This document shows, in pieces, positions 11,107 to 64,000 of a stretch of 64,000 nt of DNA. The notes under the pieces are model-generated. The model was not told the origin of the DNA. It did no database searches and saw only the letters and a list, made by a program, of their open reading frames with translations. Source of the stretch: Nocardioides sp. Root140 (GTDB taxonomy: Bacteria > Actinomycetota > Actinomycetes > Propionibacteriales > Nocardioidaceae); contig NZ_LMFI01000002.1 in assembly GCF_001426745.1 (NCBI RefSeq), positions 95,706-159,705 of the forward strand. The letters are read 5' to 3'. The translations under genes and the position numbers were made by a program. How positions within the stretch are numbered: position 1 is the stretch's first letter; the number at the start of each line of letters is the position of its first letter.

Positions 11107-11763
11107 TCAGCCGACCAGGCCGGACTCGTAGGCAAGCACGACGAGCTGCACGCGGTCGCGGGAGCCGGTCTTGGCCAGGACCCGGCCGACGTGCGTCTTC
11201 ACCGTCGCCTCGGCGACCACCAGGTCGGCGGCGATCTCGGTGTTGGAGAGCCCGCGCCCGATCAGGGTGAGGACTTCGTGCTCGCGCTCGGTGAGCACGG
11301 CGAGGCGGGAGTCGCGCGAGCGTTCAGCGCCGGGCTCGGGCAGCGTCGAGGCGAAGTGGTCGAGCAGCCGCCGGGTGGTGCTCGGGGCGACGACGGAGTC
11401 GCCGGAGTGCACCGAGCGGATGGCGTCGAGCAGGTCGGCCGGCCGGGCGTCCTTCAGCAGGAACGCGGCCGCGCCGGCCTTGATCGCGGCGAACGTGTAT
11501 TCGTCGAGGTCGAAGGTGGTCAGCACGATCACCCGTGGCGAGTCGGGCCGAGCGGCCAGGAGCCTAGTGGCCTCGACGCCGTCCATGCGCGGCATCCGGA
11601 CGTCCATGAGCACGACGTCCGCCGCGGTCACCGCCAGCTTCTCGCTGGCCTCGGCGCCGTCGCCGGCCTGGCCGACGACCGACATGTCGTCCTGGGACTC
11701 GACCAGCATCTGGAAACCGGCGCGGACCATCTCCTGGTCGTCGACGAGGAAGACCCGGATCAT
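11107..11763 (-). CDS. Two-component response regulator, NarL/LuxR family
   Basis: A 218-residue regulator. The receiver domain has the acidic pair D8-D9, phosphoacceptor D54 (VLMDVRMPRMDG) and the conserved K near 105 (FLLKDARP). The C-terminal LuxR-type helix-turn-helix reads LTEREHEVLTLIGRGLSNTEIA. The start overlaps the stop of the sensor kinase by 4 nt, so the pair is translationally coupled. The adjoining ABC exporter operon on the same strand is a plausible target, a common actinobacterial arrangement, but the tandem array separates them and no site is proven. Confidence 0.92.
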   Translation of the reverse strand: MIRVFLVDDQEMVRAGFQMLVESQDDMSVVGQAGDGAEASEKLAVTAADVVLMDVRMPRMDGVEATRLLAARPDSPRVIVLTTFDLDEYTFAAIKAGAAAFLLKDARPADLLDAIRSVHSGDSVVAPSTTRRLLDHFASTLPEPGAERSRDSRLAVLTEREHEVLTLIGRGLSNTEIAADLVVAEATVKTHVGRVLAKTGSRDRVQLVVLAYESGLVG

Positions 11764-12911
11764 GTGGGAATCCTTGCAGAGACAGCGAATCCGCCACCAT
11801 CGGCCGGGGCCGCGGTCAGGGTCCCCCCGTGCACCGTGACCCGTTCGCGCATGCCCAGCAGGCCGAGCCCCTTGCCGTCGGAACGCGCCGCGGCTCCGCG
11901 GCCGTCGTCGATCACGTCGAGGCGCAGCTCGCCGTTTCGATGGGCCAGGTCGAGCCGGACGTGCGCGACCCCGGCGTGCTTGCGCACGTTCGTCAGTGCC
12001 TCCTGCGCGATGCGGTAGACGGTCAGGCCCACGCCTTCGGGGACCTCGGGCATCGGGTCGGGCAGGTGGGCCACGAGGTCCATGCCACTGGCGCGGGTCT
12101 CCTCGACGAGGTGGAGCAGGTCGACCAGGCCGGGCTGCGGGGCGGTGCCGGATCCGCCGTCGGAGCGCAGCAGACCCAGCATGCGGCGCATCTCCGTGAG
12201 CGCGTCACGCCCGGTCTCAGAGATCGTCTGGAGCGCCGTGGTCGCAGCGCCAGGGTCCTTGGCGGAGGCGTAGCGGGCACCGTCGGCCTGCACCACGATC
12301 ACCGAGAGGCCGTGCGCCACGACGTCGTGCATCTCGCGGGCGATGCGGGCGCGTTCGTCCTGTGCGGCCAGCTGCGCCTGCTGGACGGCCTCGCGCTCGA
12401 GTCGTTCGCCGCGCTCGACCAACGAGGCGACGTACGCCGCCCGGGTGCGACCGAGGGTGCCGAGGGCCCAGGCTGCCGCGACGATGGCGGCGATGGACAG
12501 GAAGTACGCCGTGTAGGCGGTGGGCGTCCCGGCGGTGGGGTAGGGGCTCAGCCAGTCGTACGACGACACGCCCGCACCGATCACGCCGACCGCCAACACG
12601 GCGAATCCCCAACGTGCACTGGCGAAACGCGCCACCGAGTAGACCGCGACCGGGAAGGCGACCTGGCCCCAGATCGGCTCGTCGAGCACCACCGCCTGCA
12701 GCAGCGACGCCGCCACCACCACCGTGGCCGAGGCGACCGGATGGTGCCGGCGCCAGAACAGGGGCACGAACTGGATCAGGCACAACAGGCCGACCGCGGG
12801 ATCGAAGCCGCCGAGCAGGGTGCCGGCGACGGCGGTGAAGACGAGGAACCCGGCCAGCGAGGCGTCGAGGACGCGCTGTCCGCGCTCGTCGAGTCGCCAC
12901 GGCTGCCGCAT
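11760..12911 (-). CDS. Two-component sensor histidine kinase, NarL-partner (HisKA_3) type
   Basis: 383 residues with an N-terminal block of several membrane helices (about 15-160) and no large extracellular domain. A short coiled linker precedes the HisKA_3 box ERARIAREMHDVVAHGLSV, carrying the phosphorylated histidine, and a C-terminal HATPase (VYRIAQEALTNVRKHA, DDGRG, GLLGMRERV). The intramembrane-sensing layout suggests detection of membrane or envelope stress. ATG at 12911 follows TAGTCT by 6 nt (leaderless pattern). It is divergent from the AlkD-like gene, with a 16-bp palindrome between them. Confidence 0.92.
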   Translation of the reverse strand: MRQPWRLDERGQRVLDASLAGFLVFTAVAGTLLGGFDPAVGLLCLIQFVPLFWRRHHPVASATVVVAASLLQAVVLDEPIWGQVAFPVAVYSVARFASARWGFAVLAVGVIGAGVSSYDWLSPYPTAGTPTAYTAYFLSIAAIVAAAWALGTLGRTRAAYVASLVERGERLEREAVQQAQLAAQDERARIAREMHDVVAHGLSVIVVQADGARYASAKDPGAATTALQTISETGRDALTEMRRMLGLLRSDGGSGTAPQPGLVDLLHLVEETRASGMDLVAHLPDPMPEVPEGVGLTVYRIAQEALTNVRKHAGVAHVRLDLAHRNGELRLDVIDDGRGAAARSDGKGLGLLGMRERVTVHGGTLTAAPADGGGFAVSARIPT

Positions 12912-12945
12912 GGCCAGAGACTATGCGGCGCCAGCCCGTCGTACG

Positions 12946-12961
12946 TCAGACCGTGGTCTGA
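12946..12961. promoter_or_regulatory. Inverted repeat in the kinase/AlkD divergent promoter region
   Basis: TCAGACC-GT-GGTCTGA: a perfect 7-2-7 inverted repeat about 35 bp upstream of the kinase start and 49 bp upstream of the AlkD-like start. The position suits an operator or autoregulatory site for the neighbouring two-component system. The binding protein is not known. Confidence 0.4.
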
Positions 12962-13009
12962 TCCTCGGTGGCGTCGGGCGGGCGGTGTGTGCACAACTAC
13001 GCTGACGGC

Positions 13010-13744
13010 GTGCCGCACGCGATCCGACCCGACGAGCTCGTCGCGATGGTGCGCGACCAGATCGCCGCCGCGGCCGACCCGGAGAAGGCGCCGGCCATGC
13101 AGGCCTACATGAAGTCGACGATGCCCTACCGCGGCGTGACCTCGCAGCCACTCACCCGCCTGTGTCGCGAGGTGTACGCCGACTGGGTGCTGCCCGACGA
13201 GGAGTCGTGGCGTGAAGCCGTCCTGGCGCTCTGGGACGACGCGGAGTTCCGTGAGGAGCGGTACGCCGCGACGACGCTGGCCGGCCACCGGCTCTACCGC
13301 GAGCACCGGCAGCCCTGCACGATGGGCCTGTGGCGGCACCTGGTCGTGACGGGCGCGTGGTGGGACCACGTCGACGACGTCGCGACCCACCGGGTCCGTG
13401 AGCTCCTGGAGCGCTTCCCGGACACGGTCACGCCCACACTGCGTGACTGGGCCGTCGACGACGACCTGTGGCTGCGGCGTACGGCGATCATCTGCCAGGT
13501 CGGCCTGCGCGAGCGCATCGACCGCGAGCTCCTCACGCACGCGATCGACGCCAACCTCGACGGCTCCACGCGCACCAGCCCGCCGGAGTCGCCGTACGGC
13601 CGGGAGTTCTTCGTGCGCAAGGCGATCGGGTGGGCGCTCCGCGACTATTTCCGAACCGACCCGGACTGGGTGCGCGCGTTCGTCACCGAGCGCGAGGGCC
13701 GGCTCTCGGGGCTGTCGCGGCGCGAGGCCCTCAAGCATGCGTGA
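13010..13744 (+). CDS. DNA alkylation repair protein, AlkD-like HEAT-repeat fold
   Basis: About 244 residues matching the AlkD family: the early segment YMKSTMPYRGVTSQPL, then helical repeats with WVLPDEESWREAVLALWD, VDDVATHRVRELLERFP and LRDWAVDDDLWLRRTAI, and a C-terminal FFVRKAIGWALRDYFRTDP. AlkD enzymes are glycosylases that release bulky or cationic alkylated bases without flipping them. The DLWLRR segment carries the conserved acid and aromatic positions. GTG at 13010 lies 7 nt after TACGCT, so a leaderless start is chosen over the longer frame at 12968. Confidence 0.85.
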   Translation: MPHAIRPDELVAMVRDQIAAAADPEKAPAMQAYMKSTMPYRGVTSQPLTRLCREVYADWVLPDEESWREAVLALWDDAEFREERYAATTLAGHRLYREHRQPCTMGLWRHLVVTGAWWDHVDDVATHRVRELLERFPDTVTPTLRDWAVDDDLWLRRTAIICQVGLRERIDRELLTHAIDANLDGSTRTSPPESPYGREFFVRKAIGWALRDYFRTDPDWVRAFVTEREGRLSGLSRREALKHA

Positions 13745-55755: not shown

Positions 55756-56673
55756 TCAGATCGGCTCCGCGATCGCCTGGATCCGCGCGGTCGCCAGCTC
55801 GATCATCAGCTTCGCGGCGGGGGAGAGCGTGGCCCCCACCCGGTGCACGATCGCGATGGTGTCGACCTGACGCGGTCGCAGCGACACGAACCCGGCCTTG
55901 GGTGCCAGCCGGGGGAGCAGCGAGTCCGCCGCACCGCGCGGGATCACCGAGTCGGCCAGTCCCATGCCGACCAGCTCGACGGCGGTCTCGACGTCCTCGA
56001 CCTCGATGCGGGTCTGTGGGTTCAGGCCGGTCTCGTGCATCATCCCGCGCAGCACGATCCGGGTGGAGTCGTCGGCGCGCCAGGTCGTCTCGGGCATCAC
56101 CAGTGACGCCTTCGCGAGCCGCTGTGCGGTCACCGGGGTGCGCAGCCGTTCGGGATGGGCGCTGATGTAGACCAGCTCGTCGTGGGCCACCGGGGTCACG
56201 GTCATGCCCTCGCTGCTGACCTGCGGTACGGCGATCATGGCCGCCTCGATGCGACCGCGGCGGAGGTCCTCCTGGACGTCGGAGGAGTTCTGGCCGACGA
56301 GTTCGACGCGGACGCCGGGATGCCGTTCGAGCACGTCGGCGATCAGCGAGGCGCCGGCGTACAACCGGGCGGTGCCGAACATGCCGAAGCGGATCGTGCC
56401 GGTCTCGAGGGCGGTCACCGACTGCACCGCGCGCCTGGCCTCCTCGGCGGACTCGACGGTCCGCTCGGCGTGCGGACGCAGGGTCTCGGCCGCGGCCGTG
56501 GGCGTGACGCCGCGACCGACCCGGGCGAAGAGCTGCACGCCGAGCGTCTTCTCCAGCGTGCGGATCTGCTCGGAGATCGAGGGCTGGGCGTAGCCGAGGT
56601 GCTCGGCGGCCGCGGTCAGTGAGCCGCGTTCATAGACGGTGAGGAAGCAGCGCAGCTGGTGCAGGGAAAGCAT
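55756..56673 (-). CDS. LysR-family transcriptional regulator
   Basis: 305 residues. N-terminal winged helix (LHQLRCFLTVYERGSLTAAAEHLGYAQPSISEQIRTLEK-type) with a 20-residue linker helix, then a type 2 periplasmic-binding-like effector domain beginning GTIRFGMFGTARLYAG. ATG at 56673 follows an AAGGGAG site. It is divergent from a small zinc-ribbon gene; the 117-bp gap holds GGTTG/CAACC inverted elements of the T-N11-A kind. The effector is unknown. Confidence 0.92.
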   Translation of the reverse strand: MLSLHQLRCFLTVYERGSLTAAAEHLGYAQPSISEQIRTLEKTLGVQLFARVGRGVTPTAAAETLRPHAERTVESAEEARRAVQSVTALETGTIRFGMFGTARLYAGASLIADVLERHPGVRVELVGQNSSDVQEDLRRGRIEAAMIAVPQVSSEGMTVTPVAHDELVYISAHPERLRTPVTAQRLAKASLVMPETTWRADDSTRIVLRGMMHETGLNPQTRIEVEDVETAVELVGMGLADSVIPRGAADSLLPRLAPKAGFVSLRPRQVDTIAIVHRVGATLSPAAKLMIELATARIQAIAEPI

Positions 56674-57116: not shown

Positions 57117-57192
57117 GCCGCCTTAGCTCAGTCGGTAGAGCGAATCACTCGTAATGATTAGGTCGTCAGTTCGATTCTGACAGGCGGCTCCA
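57117..57192 (+). tRNA. tRNA-Thr (anticodon CGT)
   Basis: A complete cloverleaf of 76 nt. Acceptor GCCGCCT / AGGCGGC, D-arm GCTC / GAGC, anticodon stem AATCA / TGATT with loop CTCGTAA (anticodon CGT, reading ACG), T-arm GTCAG / CTGAC with TTCGATT, discriminator T and an encoded CCA. It has its own promoter and is followed by a palindromic terminator. Confidence 0.96.
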
Positions 57193-57263: not shown

Positions 57264-58235
57264 ATGCCCTCCCTCGTCGTCTCCCGCAGGCGACTGCTGG
57301 TGACCGGCCTGGTCGCGCCGGCCGCCTGGTCGTTGGCCGGGTGCCTCGGTGACGACTGGTCCGACCTCGCGGACGTCGACCTGACCCTGGCCACCGGCAA
57401 CCCGGGCGGCGTGTTCATGCGGTACGGCGAGGCGCTGGCGACCGTGCTTGCCCGCCGCCTCGACGGGCTCACCGCGAGGACCATCGCGACTGATGCGTCG
57501 GTGGAGAACCTGCGCCTCGTCGCCGAGGGCGGAGCGGACCTCGGGTTCTCGCTCGGCGACACCGCCTCGGACGCCAGCAGAGGCAACGGCAGCTTCGCGG
57601 AACCACTGGACGTGCAGGCGCTGACCCGCTCCTACGACAGCTTCGTGCACCTCGTGGTCAGGGCCGACTCGCGCATCACCGCGGTGAAGCAGCTGGCCGG
57701 ACGCCGCGTCGGTCTGGGTGCGCTGTCGTCGGGAACGCGGGTCACCGCCGAACGCATCCTGGGCCGCAACGGCCTCAGCCTCGACGACGTGTCGGCCTCG
57801 GGCCAGTCACTGCAGGACGACACCGCGGCCCTCGAGGCGGGTGACCTCGACGCGTTCTTCTTCGTCAGCGGGCTGCCGAACGAGGCGGTGCTCGACCTGA
57901 GTCGGCGTACGACGATCCGCCTGGTCGATCTGTCCGAGTCCGTCGACCCGATGGCCGAGACCTACGGCCCGGAGTACGTCGACGGTCTGGTGCCGGCCTC
58001 GACGTACGACCTGCCCGACGTGGTGCCGACGGTCAGCGTGAAGAACTACCTCGTCGTGTCGTCGGGCATGTCGGACGACGTGGCCTACGCCGTCTGCCGG
58101 GTGATCTTCGAGGCGCAGGACGCGATCGACCGGATCGCACCGGGTGTGCCGCAGCCGAACCTGAATGCGGCGATCTTCACCAGCCCGCTCGACCTGCACC
58201 CCGGCGCGCTGCGCTACTTCAGGGAGCGGGGCTGA
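57264..58235 (+). CDS. TAXI-family substrate-binding lipoprotein (first of two)
   Basis: 323 residues. The N-terminus SRRRLLVTGLVAPAAWSLAGC combines a twin-arginine-like motif with a lipobox, so it may be exported folded and lipidated. The TAXI core has LATGNPGGVFMRYGEALA, ATDASVENLRLVAEGGADLGF and VGLGALSSGTRVTAE. It stands apart from the permease, next to a kinase/regulator pair, which suggests a sensing role (inference). ATG at 57264 lies 6 nt after TAACCT (leaderless). Its 3' end overlaps the convergent kinase gene by 22 bp. Confidence 0.9.
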   Translation: MPSLVVSRRRLLVTGLVAPAAWSLAGCLGDDWSDLADVDLTLATGNPGGVFMRYGEALATVLARRLDGLTARTIATDASVENLRLVAEGGADLGFSLGDTASDASRGNGSFAEPLDVQALTRSYDSFVHLVVRADSRITAVKQLAGRRVGLGALSSGTRVTAERILGRNGLSLDDVSASGQSLQDDTAALEAGDLDAFFFVSGLPNEAVLDLSRRTTIRLVDLSESVDPMAETYGPEYVDGLVPASTYDLPDVVPTVSVKNYLVVSSGMSDDVAYAVCRVIFEAQDAIDRIAPGVPQPNLNAAIFTSPLDLHPGALRYFRERG

Positions 58236-59590
58236 GCCCCCGTCCAACGCGGCAGCATCACCTCGGCGACCAGCCCACCGCCCTCGGCCGGACCGATCGC
58301 GAAGTGGCCACCGAAGGTCTCCACGCGCGCCCGCACGATCGCCAGGCCGAGCCCGGTGCCGCCGATGTTCTGGTGCTCGCGGCCCCGGAAGAAGCGGGCA
58401 CCGACCTGCGAGAGGTCATCGGCATGCAGGCCCCGACCGTGGTCGCGCACGCTGAGCACGACGTGGTCGTCGAGCGTGCGCAGCCGCACCTCGACCCGGG
58501 ACCCGGCGGCGAACTTCGCGGCGTTGTCGAGCAGGGCGTCGAGGGCGACGTCGACGATGTCGGGCGTGGCCAGGGCCGTCGCGCTCACGGGCAGGTCGAC
58601 CTCGAGGTGCTCGATCACCGGCGCCCACATCTCGCAGCGGTGCCGGGCCTGCGCGGCCACGTCGACCGGCTGCGCCGTCACCTGGTGGGCACCCACCTGG
58701 CTCAGGTCGAGCAGCGACTCGACGATCGAGTTGAGCCGGTCGGCCTCGTCGAGCGCCAGGTCGGCCTCGCCCTCGTCGCCGGTCGTCGCGCGCAGGTTCT
58801 CCAGGCGCAGCCGTAGGGCGGTCAACGGGTTGCCCAGCTGGTGGGAGGCGTCCGCGATCAGGTCGCGCTGTTGCTGCTGGGAGGTCTCCACGTTGTCGGC
58901 CATCTGGTTGAACGACCGTGCGAGGTGCCGCAGCTCGGGTGGCCCGGCCAGCGCCGGCACCCGGGTGGACAGGTCTCCCTCGGCCAGCTTCAGTGCCGCC
59001 TCGTCCAGGCTGCTGACCGGCCGCAGCACCCAGCGCACGAACGGCCCGACCACGCCCACGGCGGTCAGCACCAGCACGGCCAGACCGGCCAGGACCAGCA
59101 GGCCGAGCCGCACCCCGACGTCGGACCGGATGTCGTCGGTGGGCGTCACGAGGATCACCGAGCCGAGGACCTGGGCGTCGCGGCCCACCGGTGAACCGAG
59201 CACGATCGGGTTGCCCTGCCACGGCCACGCGGTCGGGGGCGGTGAGGTGCCACTGCCGGACAGTGCCTGCTCGACGGCCCGGGCGACGTCCGGGTCCCGG
59301 GCGTCGGCGCCCGGCGTCGATGCGGCGATCACCACCGAGTTGGCGTCGGTGACGACGACGGTGCCGCCGTACACGTCGGCGTAGCGTTCGAGGTCGGTCT
59401 CCAACTCGTTGAAGTGGCCGTCCTCCAACGCCCGCTCGGCAAGCACCGCGAAGCGGGTCACGTCGGTGAGGCGGCGGACGAAGACGTCCTGGGTGCGATC
59501 CTCGGCGTACGCATTGACCAGCGGCACCATCAGCGCGACCAGCAGCATGCCGAGCAGGGCGGCCGCCACCGTGACGAGTCGGCGCCTCAC
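58214..59590 (-). CDS. Sensor histidine kinase, HAMP/HisKA type (TctE-like)
   Basis: About 458 residues: TM1 (RLVTVAAALLGMLLVALMVPLV), an external domain of about 140 residues, TM2 (LLVLAGLAVLVLTAVGVVGPFV), a HAMP linker, HisKA with DASHQLGNPLTALRLRLENL (phospho-H in SHQLGNP) and HATPase (LLDNAAKFAAGS, GTGLGLAIV). GTG at 59590 begins just before TM1; longer frames overlap the response regulator gene. It is transcribed after the regulator. Kinases of this group often sense carboxylates through an external ligand or receptor. Confidence 0.9.
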   Translation of the reverse strand: MRRRLVTVAAALLGMLLVALMVPLVNAYAEDRTQDVFVRRLTDVTRFAVLAERALEDGHFNELETDLERYADVYGGTVVVTDANSVVIAASTPGADARDPDVARAVEQALSGSGTSPPPTAWPWQGNPIVLGSPVGRDAQVLGSVILVTPTDDIRSDVGVRLGLLVLAGLAVLVLTAVGVVGPFVRWVLRPVSSLDEAALKLAEGDLSTRVPALAGPPELRHLARSFNQMADNVETSQQQQRDLIADASHQLGNPLTALRLRLENLRATTGDEGEADLALDEADRLNSIVESLLDLSQVGAHQVTAQPVDVAAQARHRCEMWAPVIEHLEVDLPVSATALATPDIVDVALDALLDNAAKFAAGSRVEVRLRTLDDHVVLSVRDHGRGLHADDLSQVGARFFRGREHQNIGGTGLGLAIVRARVETFGGHFAIGPAEGGGLVAEVMLPRWTGAQPRSLK

Positions 59591-59594
59591 CCGC

Positions 59595-60266
59595 TCACGT
59601 CCCCTCGGCGCGAGCGGGAGCCACCCGGTAGCCGGTGCCGCGCACCGTCTCGATGAGCTCCGGCCGGCCGAGCTTCCCGCGCAGGCTCGCGACATGTACG
59701 TCGATCGTGCGGGAGGCGCCCACCCACGAGGTGTGCCAGATCGCCTCCATGATCGACTCCCGGGTGACCACGTCGCCATTGCCCTGCACCAGCAGGGCAA
59801 GCAGGTCCAGCTCCTTGGGCGCGAGCGCGACCGGCTCGTCGTCGACGTACGCCTGGCGGGCCCCGGTGTCGACCCGGATGCCGCCGAACTCCGCGCGCTC
59901 GGAGACCGTACGCCGACCGCTGCGGCGCATCACCGCCTCGATCCGCGCCATCAGCTCGGCGAGCCGGTAGGGCTTGGTGACGTAGTCGTCGACCCCGGCA
60001 CGCAGTGCGGCCACGACACTGGACTCCTCGCGGCGGGCGGTGACCGCGATGATCGGCACGGGGTTCACCTCGCGGATCTGGCGGCACAGGGCGAAGCCGT
60101 CCTGGTCGGGGAGCCCCATGTCGAGCAGGATCAGGTCGGCGGCCGCATGCATCGTCATCGCCTGGGCCGCGGTCGCCGCCCGGTCGACGATCAGGTTGGC
60201 CCGTTGCAGGGCCGGTTCGAGGGCGGCGACCACTCGGTCGTCGTCCTCGACGAGAAGGATGCGCAT
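59595..60266 (-). CDS. OmpR/PhoB-family response regulator (TctD-like)
   Basis: 223 residues. Receiver with D8-D9 and phosphoacceptor D49 (LILLDMGLPD), conserved lysine in YVTKPYRLAEL, and a C-terminal winged helix (LAPKELDLLALLVQGNGDVVTRE, SRTIDVHVASLRGKLG). It is divergent from the TRAP permease gene, whose promoter region holds a short palindrome, and is likely to control that transporter. ATG at 60266 has a GAGGA site. Confidence 0.92.
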   Translation of the reverse strand: MRILLVEDDDRVVAALEPALQRANLIVDRAATAAQAMTMHAAADLILLDMGLPDQDGFALCRQIREVNPVPIIAVTARREESSVVAALRAGVDDYVTKPYRLAELMARIEAVMRRSGRRTVSERAEFGGIRVDTGARQAYVDDEPVALAPKELDLLALLVQGNGDVVTRESIMEAIWHTSWVGASRTIDVHVASLRGKLGRPELIETVRGTGYRVAPARAEGT

Positions 60267-60335
60267 GGGTCCTCAGGAGGGATCGGAGCGGCGTACCTCA
60301 AGGCTCTGTAAAGTCTCGCAGCCAAGTGTGGATGT

Positions 60336-60350
60336 GACGTGGTTCACGTC
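60336..60350. promoter_or_regulatory. Palindrome in the regulator/TRAP divergent region
   Basis: GACGTG-GTT-CACGTC: a perfect 6-3-6 inverted repeat 16 bp upstream of the TRAP permease start and overlapping the expected -10/-35 zone (TACGTT at 60353-60358). A candidate operator for the adjacent response regulator. Confidence 0.4.
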
Positions 60351-60365
60351 CCTACGTTACCCAGC

Positions 60366-62522
60366 ATGCCTACCCCAACCGCCACCCCCCGCGACCGCAC
60401 GGACGGCCTCGAGCTGTCCGCCGCCGACGCCGAGAAGCTGGCCGCAGAGTTCGACGAGGAGCGGCCCGGCCGACGGCTGTCGCTGCGGGTCGACCGGTTG
60501 GTCAACCTCTGGTGCTTCCTGGTCGCCCTGTTCGTGCTCAAGCAGGTGTTCTGGCCGCTGACCCTGGGCAGCCAGTACTACCTCGTGCTGTTCCTGGCCA
60601 CCACACTCCCGCTGGCCTTCGTCTGCTACCGGTTCCGGGCCTCACGACACGACCCGATCGAGGCGCTCAACGCCACCGAGCGCAACGACAACCCGGGCAT
60701 CGTCGACTGGGCCCTGGCGTTGGTCACCCTGGTGGTCGGGCTCTACCCGGTGCTGCCGATCGCGCAGACGTCGTACGGGTTCGGTGGCTACGAAGGCTTC
60801 CTCGACCGGCAGGGATCACTGCTCGACCTCGACATCGCGGCCGGCCTGCTGCTCATGGTGCTGGTCCTCGAGGCCACGCGCCGCACCACCGGCCTGGTCC
60901 TGCCCGCCGTCTGCCTGGTCTTCTTCGCCTACGCCTACTACGGCGGCTACCTGCCGATCCACTGGACCATCTCGCACATGGGCCTGAACATCGACCAGAT
61001 CGTCAACGCCCTCTACAACGAGGCGAGCGGATTCTTCGGGGTGCCGCTCGACGTCGCCGCGACGTACATCGTGCTGTTCACGATCTACGGCGCCGTCCTC
61101 GAGCGGATGGGCGCCGGCCGGTTCTTCGTCGAGTTCGCGTTCTCGCTCTTCCGCAAGTCCTCCACCGCGCCGGGGCGCACCGTGGCCACCTCGGGCTTCC
61201 TGCTCGGCACCGTCTCCGGCTCCGGTACGGCGACCGCGGTCACCCTCGGCTCGTTCGCCTGGCCGATCCTCAAGCGGGCCGGCTACCCCAAGGAGTCCGC
61301 CGGCGGCATGCTGGCCGCCTCCGGAATCGGCGCGATCCTCTCGCCGCCGACCATGGGTGCTGCCGCGTTCATCATCGCGGAGTATCTCAGCGTCTCCTAC
61401 ATCACCGTGCTCGGCTGGGCGATCGTGCCCACCCTGCTCTACTACGTCGGCATCTTCATCGCCGTCGAGATCGACGCCCGGCGCTTCGGCGCGAAGCGGG
61501 TCGAGCTCGCGATCGGCAGCCCCTGGCAGCTGCTGGCCCGCTCCGGCTACCACTTCCTCAGCCTGGGCGTGATCATCTTCTTCCTCGCCATCGACGTGCC
61601 GCCGTTCAAGGCCGTCGTCTACGCCACGCTGGTGGCCGCGGCCTTCGGCCTGGCCGAGGCGTTCCTCTCCCGCCGCCCGGTGGTCAGCGGGTTCAGTGAG
61701 ACCGACGAGGGCCCCGGTGAGCGGATGGAGCTGAAGGCCTCGCTGGTCAACTTCGTCTCCCGCCTGTACGGCGCCCTGGCCGGCGGCATCCGCTCCGGAC
61801 TGCCGGTGATCGCCGTCTGCGCGGCGGCAGGTGTCATCACCTCCACCATCGCCAAGACCGGTCTCGGCCAGGTCCTGGCCGACTTCCTGGTGCAGGCGGC
61901 CGAGGCGATCGCGCCGAACCACGCCGTGCTGATCCTGCTGTCGGCGATCTTCTCCGCCATCGCGATCCTGATCCTGGGCCTGGCCGTGCCGGTCACCGCG
62001 TCGTTCATCCTCAGCTGGGTGGTCATCGGCCCGGCCCTGATCTCGCTGGGGGTCGGCGCCCCCGAGGTGGCGATGTTCATCTTCTACTACGCCGTGCTCT
62101 CGGAGGTCTCCCCGCCGACGGCGCTGGCCGCGGTCGCCTCCGCCGCCATCACCGGCGGCAAGGTGATCCCGACGATGATGCAGGCCTGCAAGTACACCCT
62201 GCCGGCCTTCCTGGCACCGCTCGCGTTCGTGGTCACCGACAACGGGTCGCTGCTGCTCGGCCGGGGGAGCCTGGCCGGCGTCGTCGGTGCCACGGTGGTC
62301 TGCTGCCTCGCCGTCGCCGGGCTCGCCGTCGCCACCACTGGGTGGATGTTCGGCCCCACCCGCCTGGTCGAACGGCTCCTGTGCCTCGCCGCCGCGCTGC
62401 TGCTGCTCTACCTCGAGCCGCTCTCGATGATCGCCGGCGGCGTCGTGCTGGCCGTCGCCGTACTGCTCCACCTGGCGGTGCGTGGGCGCGACCGCACCGC
62501 AGAGCCCGCCCCACAGTCCTGA
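60366..62522 (+). CDS. TAXI-TRAP transporter fused small/large membrane subunit (DctQM-type)
   Basis: 718 residues with about 17 membrane helices. The first part (about 50-230) resembles the small DctQ subunit; the rest is a DctM-type large subunit with GTVSGSGTATAVTLGSFAWP and GGMLAASGIGAILSPPTMGAAAF, signature loops of the fused TAXI-associated permeases. It moves an organic acid with Na+ or H+, delivered by a TAXI receptor. ATG at 60366 lies 7 nt after TACGTT (leaderless). The second TAXI receptor follows 67 bp downstream. Confidence 0.93.
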   Translation: MPTPTATPRDRTDGLELSAADAEKLAAEFDEERPGRRLSLRVDRLVNLWCFLVALFVLKQVFWPLTLGSQYYLVLFLATTLPLAFVCYRFRASRHDPIEALNATERNDNPGIVDWALALVTLVVGLYPVLPIAQTSYGFGGYEGFLDRQGSLLDLDIAAGLLLMVLVLEATRRTTGLVLPAVCLVFFAYAYYGGYLPIHWTISHMGLNIDQIVNALYNEASGFFGVPLDVAATYIVLFTIYGAVLERMGAGRFFVEFAFSLFRKSSTAPGRTVATSGFLLGTVSGSGTATAVTLGSFAWPILKRAGYPKESAGGMLAASGIGAILSPPTMGAAAFIIAEYLSVSYITVLGWAIVPTLLYYVGIFIAVEIDARRFGAKRVELAIGSPWQLLARSGYHFLSLGVIIFFLAIDVPPFKAVVYATLVAAAFGLAEAFLSRRPVVSGFSETDEGPGERMELKASLVNFVSRLYGALAGGIRSGLPVIAVCAAAGVITSTIAKTGLGQVLADFLVQAAEAIAPNHAVLILLSAIFSAIAILILGLAVPVTASFILSWVVIGPALISLGVGAPEVAMFIFYYAVLSEVSPPTALAAVASAAITGGKVIPTMMQACKYTLPAFLAPLAFVVTDNGSLLLGRGSLAGVVGATVVCCLAVAGLAVATTGWMFGPTRLVERLLCLAAALLLLYLEPLSMIAGGVVLAVAVLLHLAVRGRDRTAEPAPQS

Positions 62523-62589
62523 GCATCCCCATTCCCGCCCACGCGTCACCTTCCCTCCGTCCCACCCCATCAGAGAAACGGTCACTCCC

Positions 62590-63591
62590 ATGAAGAAGCA
62601 GAAGAAGCTCGCCCTCCTCACCGCCGGCATCGCCACCGCCGCCCTGACCCTGGCCGCATGCGGTGGTCAACAGGCCGGGGACGAAGCCGGCAGCGGAGCC
62701 GACGAGTCCAGCTGTGACGCCGGCGAAGGGCGCCTCAGCATCGCCACCGGCAACTCCACGGGCGTCTACTTCGTGGTCGGCGGCGGCCTCGCCAAGCTGA
62801 TCAACGACGAGACCGACGTGCAGGCCACCTCCGCGGAGACCGGGGCGTCGGTGCAGAACATCCAGCAGCTGGTCGAGGGCGACTACGACGTGGCGTTCTC
62901 GCTGGCCGACACCGCTGCCGACGCGGTCAACGGCGAAGGTGACTTCGACTCGGCCGAAGACGTGTCGACGATCGGTCGCATCTACTCCAACTACACCCAG
63001 ATCGTGGTGCGCACGGACTCCGGCATCGACTCGGTGGCCGACTTCAAGGGCAAGCGGATCTCGACAGGCTCGCCGCAGTCCGGCACCGAGGTGATCGCCA
63101 ACAAGCTGATCGAGGCCGCCGGGTTGAAGACCAGCGACGTCAAGGCCCAGCGCCTCGACCTGACCAAGACCATCGACGGCATGAAGGACGGCAGCATCGA
63201 CGGCCTCGTGTGGTCCGGTGGCATCCCGACCCCGGCGCTGACCGACCTGGTCACCTCGGTCGGTGACGACGTGAAGTTCCTCGACGCCACACCGCTGCTG
63301 CCGAAGCTGAAGAAGATCAACCAGGTCTACGAGGCCGGCACCGTGCCCGCCGCCACCTACGAGCTCGACAAGGACGTCCCGTCGATCGTGGTGCCCAACC
63401 TGCTGATGGTCCGCAACGACATGCGCGACAACCTGGCCTGCGCGCTGACCACCCTGGTCTTCGGCGAGACCGACAAGCTGGTCGACGTCCACCCGGCGGC
63501 CAAGGAGATCGCGTTGGAGAACGGTGAGAAGAGCGACCCCGTGCCGGTGCACCCCGGTTCCGAGCGCGCCTTCGCCGACCTCGCGAAGTAG
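62590..63591 (+). CDS. TAXI-family substrate-binding lipoprotein (second)
   Basis: 333 residues. Sec lipoprotein signal with lipobox (LTLAACGG), then the TAXI fold: LSIATGNSTGVYFVVGGGLA, ATSAETGASVQNIQQLVEGDYDVAF and GKRISTGSPQSGTEVIANKL. Expected to deliver substrate to the fused permease just upstream; ATG at 62590 has no close Shine-Dalgarno, and the upstream gap is C-rich. Related to but distinct from the receptor at 57264. The best known TAXI ligands are C5 acids such as glutamate, 2-oxoglutarate and relatives. Confidence 0.93.
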   Translation: MKKQKKLALLTAGIATAALTLAACGGQQAGDEAGSGADESSCDAGEGRLSIATGNSTGVYFVVGGGLAKLINDETDVQATSAETGASVQNIQQLVEGDYDVAFSLADTAADAVNGEGDFDSAEDVSTIGRIYSNYTQIVVRTDSGIDSVADFKGKRISTGSPQSGTEVIANKLIEAAGLKTSDVKAQRLDLTKTIDGMKDGSIDGLVWSGGIPTPALTDLVTSVGDDVKFLDATPLLPKLKKINQVYEAGTVPAATYELDKDVPSIVVPNLLMVRNDMRDNLACALTTLVFGETDKLVDVHPAAKEIALENGEKSDPVPVHPGSERAFADLAK

Positions 63592-63648
63592 CGCCCGGCC
63601 CGACCGTTCCGCATGACCCCCCCACCGATCCCGCCCAGGAGAGACCCC

Positions 63649-64000
63649 GTGAACGACCACCCCACCACCGCCGTGTCGAAGGCATCCATGACGCCGCTCC
63701 AGTTCTTCGACACCGACGCGTTGCTCTCGGAGGAGGATGTCGCGATCCGCGACACGGTGCGCAAGTACGTCGAGTCGAAGGTGAAGCCGCAGCTGGCTGG
63801 TTGGTATGAGTCGGCGTCGATTCCGGCCCGTGAGCTGGCCAAGGAGCTCGGGTCGTTGGGTGTGTTGGGAATGCATCTGGAGGGTTATGGGTGTGCGGGT
63901 ACCAGTGCGACGGCGTACGGGTTGGCCTGCATGGAGCTGGAGGCCGGTGACTCGGGGTTGCGGTCGTTGGTGTCGGTGCAGGGGTCGTTGGCGATGTTCG
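63649..64000 (+). CDS. Acyl-CoA dehydrogenase, glutaryl-CoA dehydrogenase type, C-terminus outside window
   Basis: The first 117 residues of an acyl-CoA dehydrogenase: TPLQFFDTDALLSEEDVAIR, RKYVESKVKPQLAGWYE and LEAGDSGLRSLVSVQGSLAM. The last block is a hallmark of glutaryl-CoA dehydrogenases, which oxidise and decarboxylate glutaryl-CoA to crotonyl-CoA. GTG at 63649 follows AGGAGAG. The gene lies 57 bp after the TAXI receptor, linking that transporter to glutarate-like substrates. From about 63,790 the codons change abruptly to G/T-ending forms (TTG, GGT, TAT), unlike upstream genes. Confidence 0.85.
   Translation, partial: MNDHPTTAVSKASMTPLQFFDTDALLSEEDVAIRDTVRKYVESKVKPQLAGWYESASIPARELAKELGSLGVLGMHLEGYGCAGTSATAYGLACMELEAGDSGLRSLVSVQGSLAMF

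Follow-up and report, generated by a model that had tools for sequence, protein, structure and literature searches.

The 64,000-nucleotide stretch of Nocardioides sp. Root140 DNA analysed here (RefSeq assembly GCF_001426745.1, contig NZ_LMFI01000002.1; hereafter, the window) ends, from position 57264 onward, in a group of genes for two TAXI solute-binding lipoproteins (R1 and R2), a sensor histidine kinase (HK), a response regulator (RR), a fused TRAP permease, and the beginning of a glutaryl-CoA dehydrogenase-like protein (GCDH). We consider it fairly probable that R1 is the ligand-presenting subunit of a two-component system of the GluK/GluR type, which would switch on the divergent operon of TRAP permease, R2 and gcdH upon encountering extracellular glutarate or a close five-carbon (C5) dicarboxylate. 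The arrangement itself is real and conserved, and genomic data give good support to a signalling role for R1-type TAXI proteins. Locus (L), genome (G) and contig (C) numbers are ours.

57264..58235, + strand: R1, TAXI solute-binding lipoprotein of the kinase-linked branch (TIGR02122, 249.8 bits; PF16868, 199.6 bits; tree)
58214..59590, - strand: HK, GluK-family sensor histidine kinase (HAMP, HisKA and HATPase_c domains in Pfam; GTG start at 59590)
59595..60266, - strand: RR, OmpR/PhoB-type response regulator, GluR-like (PF00072, 88.3 bits; PF00486, 81.5 bits)
60298..60315, + strand: candidate RR operator TCAAGGCTCTGTAAAGTC, between the RR and permease genes, present once in the Root140 genome
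60339..62522, + strand: fused TRAP permease of the DctQM type (TIGR02123, 399.7 bits, cut-off 320.65; PF06808)
62590..63591, + strand: R2, TAXI solute-binding lipoprotein of the permease-linked branch (TIGR02122, 275.5 bits; tree)
63649..64000, + strand, running off the window: GCDH-like gene (similarity to the GCDH of locus L057)

Conservation of the locus and TAXI-kinase linkage

A first-pass annotation of the window, made from its letters alone, had named two TAXI receptors, a kinase/regulator pair, a fused permease and a dehydrogenase, and profile matches confirmed all of them; both R1 and R2 passed the curated TIGR02122 cut-off of 84.35 bits, and in the permease Pfam gave DctM as the sole domain. 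The same annotation had set the two receptor-partner pairs on convergent strands. Convergence indeed exists between R1 and HK, the 3' ends of which share 22 bp; R2 and the permease, however, share one strand, with the permease 67 bp upstream, i.e., a fused DctQM permease and a TAXI gene in one operon. On the strand of HK, and 4 bp upstream of it, comes RR, which is transcribed divergently from the permease. Two starts are available for the permease (GTG 60339 or, more likely, ATG 60366) and two for the GCDH-like gene (GTG 63649 or ATG 63613); the contig (C2) stops 433 bp beyond the window, within the latter gene.

The gene order R1, HK, RR, permease, R2, with HK and RR on the opposite strand, recurred in 24 of the 186 loci inspected (23 of 179 when seven records seen twice are removed), the named holders being Nocardioides, Janibacter, Mumia, Streptomyces and Kribbella. 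Since this order recurs across loci, and since the Root140 genome has just two TAXI genes by PF16868 search, namely R1 and R2, the module is beyond chance. An R1 alignment run against named genomes yielded 175 relatives, and among the best 80, which were kept, a kinase was matched by the HK model in 76 loci, scoring at least 452 bits in 75 and 339 bits in L061; in two of the 76 (L109 and L127) it lies 4-7 kb off. The remaining loci had only a permease (2/80) or a TAXI gene at a contig end (2/80). Fully 53 of the 80 carried TAXI, HK and RR with no permease in the stretch examined, and the permease-free TAXI-kinase pair, for which a comparison of gene neighbourhoods had been recommended, is therefore a common arrangement in the sampled Actinomycetes. 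In Janibacter indicus (L059, 9002-10022), two extra genes, one transposase-like by eye, lie between R1 and HK, and the module is retained.

A sample independent of R1 was obtained by searching 197 genomes of the class with TIGR02122, of which 63 matched, 61 above the cut-off. From these, 91 regions were taken, omitting the two Root140 genes, the L044 gene and eight below-cut-off places, and 102 TAXI genes, each longer than 700 bp, were counted. Within 2.5 kb, 53 had only a kinase, 13 a kinase and a permease, 23 only a permease, and 13 neither. A kinase was found this close in 66 of the 102, at a median gap of 76.5 bp, converging with the TAXI gene in 41 cases and running in the same direction in 25; all but one of the 66 scored above 300 bits with the GluK-family model, the weak one being L187 (116 bits). 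Linkage of a solute-binding protein (SBP) gene to a kinase across genomes is one mark of an SBP-dependent two-component system, and R1-type TAXI genes bear it. Ten loci of the other kind (L258 and L260-L268), with neither kinase nor permease in the stretch, mostly have a Q93/D125/W200/A201 pocket and are perhaps another orphan group.

The linkage was also seen from the side of the kinase. When the kinase alignment was used as the query, 63 kinases reached 413 bits or more, and a TAXI gene lay no more than 2.5 kb away from 60 of them and no more than 7 kb away from 62; the 60/63 figure is partly circular, as the hidden Markov model (HMM) was made from TAXI-linked kinases, some of them in the sample, and the absence of TAXI-free kinases at or above 413 bits is less so. 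Among the next 27 kinases (261-366 bits), none had a TAXI gene within 2.5 kb. The gap between 413.8 and 365.6 bits sets the GluK family apart from other kinases, and the window's HK, which heads the alignment behind the model, scores 566.3 bits. In L271 and L272, the linkage persists across 3-6 kb of intervening genes.

R1 might serve the TRAP permease as an additional or spare receptor and have no part in signalling, as it is a full-length TAXI protein above the curated cut-off and shares its locus with the permease; several lines of evidence make this very improbable. R1 adjoins HK, and not the permease, in the 24 five-gene loci. In 35 of the 61 TAXI-bearing genomes, no fused TRAP permease was detected at an E-value of 1e-20 (unfused ones were outside this search), and in 32 of these 35 a TAXI gene is linked to a kinase, at a distance of up to 2.5 kb in 31 and of 3.1 kb in G199; in the other three (G168, G198 and G252), no kinase was found beside the TAXI genes examined. 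GltS, considered as a hidden membrane partner of TAXI, was likewise found in none of 33 genomes (the 32 and that of Root140) and was rejected. Since neither transporter was detected in the 32 genomes, transport by fused TRAP permeases or by GltS does not explain the kinase-linked TAXI genes there, and the idea that R1 is an orphan or additional receptor for transport was rejected as the principal interpretation.

The TAXI tree is in agreement with a signalling role. It comprised 211 proteins (135 kinase-linked, 60 permease-linked and 16 other), with several long branches, and the kinase-linked label changed 9 times along it, compared with 62.0 in shuffles; for the permease-linked label, the values were 5 and 52.6. 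R1 fell in the kinase-linked part and R2 in the permease-linked part, which upholds the first-pass assignment of one receptor to the kinase and the other to the permease. In L189 and L199, there are three consecutive TAXI genes, one by HK and two ahead of a permease.

The kinase ectodomain as a candidate contact site

The N-terminus of R1 carries a twin-arginine-like signal (SRRRLL) and a lipobox (LAGC), and its predicted fold (mean predicted local distance difference test, pLDDT, 93.5) is most similar in the PDB to 1us4, with template modelling (TM) scores of 0.83/0.90. Neither signal was taken as a mark of kinase-linked TAXI proteins: a loose lipobox pattern occurs in 102 of 135 kinase-linked and 60 of 60 permease-linked sequences, and twin arginines, crudely counted, in 113 of 135 and 41 of 60, respectively, and no contrast is claimed on those counts. 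The HK model (pLDDT 92.6) begins with a long helix; its ectodomain comprises four strands and two helices, and its kinase core has WalK and CpxA as the best matches among solved structures. The alignments cover residues 207-451, and the ectodomain fold is hardly tested by them. A Pro123-Trp124 pair (numbered from the GTG), in the loop before ectodomain strand 129-137, is invariant in all 81 aligned TAXI-linked kinases. It is also present in the kinases of L270-L272, in which the TAXI gene is far or unseen, and it is absent in the four nearest TAXI-free kinases read (L273-L276) of the 27. This loop is the candidate contact site for R1.

The chief rival to a ligand-presenting R1 is an HK ectodomain that senses its ligand directly, with R1 a co-inherited lipoprotein that has another task, such as concentrating the ligand at the membrane or sharpening specificity. 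We regard this as unlikely, though much of the evidence on its side also tells against our proposal. Streptomyces coelicolor GluK is reported to bind glutamate directly by biolayer interferometry (PMC9739842), which argues against R1 being required; an SBP gene beside a kinase gene does not always imply a functional link, and pairs are known for which no interaction was detected (PMC11113362). The ectodomain of the window's own HK is confidently predicted to be folded, and in a mirror-tree comparison R1 distances correlated with those of the ectodomain at 0.871 and with those of the core at 0.877. Since the ectodomain correlation is no higher than that of the core, this result speaks for co-inheritance of R1 and HK and not for contact, and co-evolution was dropped as a contact test for want of discrimination. 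Against direct sensing, TAXI linkage is near-obligate in both directions and is kept over the intervening genes of L271 and L272, and the Pro-Trp signature of the ectodomain tracks that linkage.

Ligand and candidate operator

The first-pass annotation had read the gene after R2 as a glutaryl-CoA dehydrogenase, and its class was borne out: two pieces of it are 86% and 84% identical to the GCDH of L057, which in turn scores 643.6 bits against structure 3swo, deposited as glutaryl-CoA dehydrogenase. Among ten close full modules, GCDH directly follows R2 in seven, and a CoA-transferase is adjacent in seven, six times after GCDH and once straight after R2 (L054); L052 has GCDH without an adjacent CoA-transferase, and two Mumia loci have neither gene. 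The best family for the CoA-transferase is succinate--glutarate CoA-transferase, at 335.9 bits, below the cut-off of 750. A glutarate CoA-transferase had been suggested as a thing to look for beyond position 64,000, and a candidate stands there in most of the close relatives, subject to that cut-off; in Root140 itself, the CoA-transferase gene, 74% identical to that of L049, lies on another contig, C16, starting 117 bp from its end. Because those 117 bp encode a GCDH C-terminus ahead of the CoA-transferase, C2 and C16 are probably neighbours, although other GCDH copies in the genome leave some doubt. A complete copy (90%) lies at C14:76298-77452, and partial GCDH-like stretches, 81-87% identical and with TGA codons inside two of them, occupy C10:1720426-1722457, possibly as a degenerate tandem array.

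The binding pockets were compared with that of VcGluP, in which Q93 and E125 bind the amino group of glutamate (PMC11574862). The corresponding residues in the close clade are Leu/Ser in 12 of 12 R1 and Leu/Asn in 12 of 12 R2 sequences, and such R1 pockets argue against glutamate as the signal. Residue 125 is acidic in 28 of 29 gluABCD-linked R1 proteins and in 3 of 31 TRAP-linked ones. Overall, the glutarate reading gained support from the GCDH and CoA-transferase neighbours in most close relatives and from the replaced amino-group ligands. The GCDH and CoA-transferase pair acts on glutarate and glutaryl-CoA in known pathways.

Direct repeats are often used by OmpR-type regulators, and TCAAGGCTCTGTAAAGTC (60298-60315), aligned across the modules, apparently contains one of 11 bp. 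The operator pattern derived from it has one occurrence in the Root140 genome at up to two mismatches, and the control has none. The motif GTAAAG was found upstream of RR in 22 of 33 TRAP-linked, 0 of 29 ABC-linked and 2 of 70 loci linked to neither, and in 16 of 1770 background windows. The single genomic copy and this distribution suggest that RR has one target, the permease operon, and that the ABC-linked branch uses a different site. An operator common to the gluABCD loci was not found, given the 0/29 count.

The following must be set against the proposed ligand and circuit. GCDH and CoA-transferase pass no curated NCBIfam equivalog cut-off, and a GCDH gene after R2 is confined to the close clade, with none in the Kribbella module flanks examined. 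CsiD was above its cut-off in none of 20 genomes searched, with two weak matches below, and the CsiD route of glutarate hydroxylation was rejected on this count. The match of pocket type to linked transporter amounts to one independent switch on the tree (two distant TAXI rows, of L189 and L199, being dropped before the count) and was therefore rejected as independent evidence, and L058 is an exception, with a glutarate-type pocket beside an ABC operon. In gluABCD-linked and lone modules, the region upstream of RR lacks the candidate operator or has it only rarely.

It is possible, though we are doubtful, that the module works as proposed on another C5 acid, e.g., 2-oxoglutarate, L-2-hydroxyglutarate or a lysine-derived acid. 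The module is followed in L057, L163, L168 and L169 by a gene resembling that of L-2-hydroxyglutarate oxidase, the same R2 pocket recurs in loci without gcdH (Kribbella, L040-L043), and the equivalog scores just mentioned would fit as well; on the other side, GCDH and CoA-transferase stand right behind R2 in most of the close clade, and probably in Root140 too. After the oxidase-like gene, L163 (Nocardioides jiangsuensis, 11330-13010) has a DHDPS-family gene and a short-chain dehydrogenase. In L040-L043, the permease and R2 occur without a kinase; each locus has an FAD-linked oxidase, and the R2 pocket matches that of the glutarate modules. A Rieske/DUF5914 protein is also encoded beside the permease and R2 in L040, L041 and L043.

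With glutarate or a close relative as the ligand, the system would operate as follows. Ligand-loaded R1 would dock on the HK ectodomain, plausibly at the invariant Pro-Trp loop; HK would then phosphorylate RR, which would act at 60298-60315; R2 would hand the same ligand to the permease; and GCDH and the CoA-transferase would degrade it via glutaryl-CoA to crotonyl-CoA, a route for which the GcdH/GcdG chemistry is established. A tRNA-Thr gene (57117-57192) lies just ahead of R1; a LysR-type regulator gene (55756-56673, - strand), also upstream of R1, stands apart from the conserved module as far as seen.

Comparison with known systems

The first-pass annotation had named the citrate system TctC/TctDE as the closest precedent. 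That place belongs instead to GluR/GluK of Streptomyces, a locus type with a kinase of the same family and, likewise, a TAXI gene nearby. In S. coelicolor, GluK/GluR (SCO5779/5778) adjoins gluABCD, and glutamate is named as its signal (PMC9739842). The ABC-operon-linked kinases of the genus taken as Streptomyces score about 552-593 bits, and the RR-HK order is that of the window. In L178, L200, L207, L213 and L226 (taken as Streptomyces), RR is divergent from an ABC operon of ATPase, family-3 binding protein and permeases, and the TAXI gene converges with HK; in all, 29 kinase-linked TAXI loci match an ABC operon by its ATPase or binding protein. By sequence, the window's HK and RR belong to the GluK/GluR family, but their probable target differs: TAXI-TRAP and gcdH, not gluABCD, make up the divergent operon, and the R1 pocket lacks an acid at position 125. 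The TAXI neighbour of gluK in S. coelicolor is presumably SCO5780, which has no mention in the literature searched. The available part of PMC9739842 does not mention a TAXI neighbour of GluK, and no TAXI protein is described as a kinase partner in the literature searched, the coverage of which excluded the primary GluR/GluK paper (PMC5573080) and the SBP-signalling review. The system is thus a variant of SBP-dependent two-component systems that combines a known kinase family with a TAXI partner unmentioned in that literature.

A wider proposal, for which we see the chances as evenly balanced, is an Actinomycetes-wide class in which a TAXI lipoprotein that gave up transport became the sensing subunit of GluK-family kinases, including Streptomyces GluK, and was re-aimed between glutamate and glutarate through the TAXI pocket. 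If true, annotating kinase-serving TAXI proteins of Actinomycetes as transporter subunits misleads, as most sampled TAXI genes adjoin a kinase, and the signal input of the GluK family, tied through GluK to antibiotic control in Streptomyces (PMC9739842), needs a second look. The window's version, aimed at a likely glutarate ligand, could be a biosensor part.

Other systems share one half of the arrangement or the other. As in BctC/BctDE and TctC/TctDE, in which the kinase governing a transporter takes its signal from the transporter's binding protein, and in which BctC and BctE of Bordetella interact by two-hybrid assay (PMC5812351), R1 would report to a kinase; BctC, however, is a TctC-family protein that also serves transport, whereas R1 is a TAXI protein separate from the transport receptor R2. 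TAXI proteins are described as receptors of TRAP transporters and called a neglected group (PMC5812351). Like those of the VcGluP/VcGluQM and TtGluBP systems, R1 and R2 match TAXI structures (1us4 and 8s4j), and R2 pairs with a fused permease, but both lack the amino-group ligands Q93 and E125, and the window's permease shows DctM as its one Pfam domain. Finally, GltS is a known membrane partner of TAXI proteins divorced from TRAP permeases, as with Bordetella BP0403 (PMC12344293); the partner there is a transporter, whereas here it would be a kinase.

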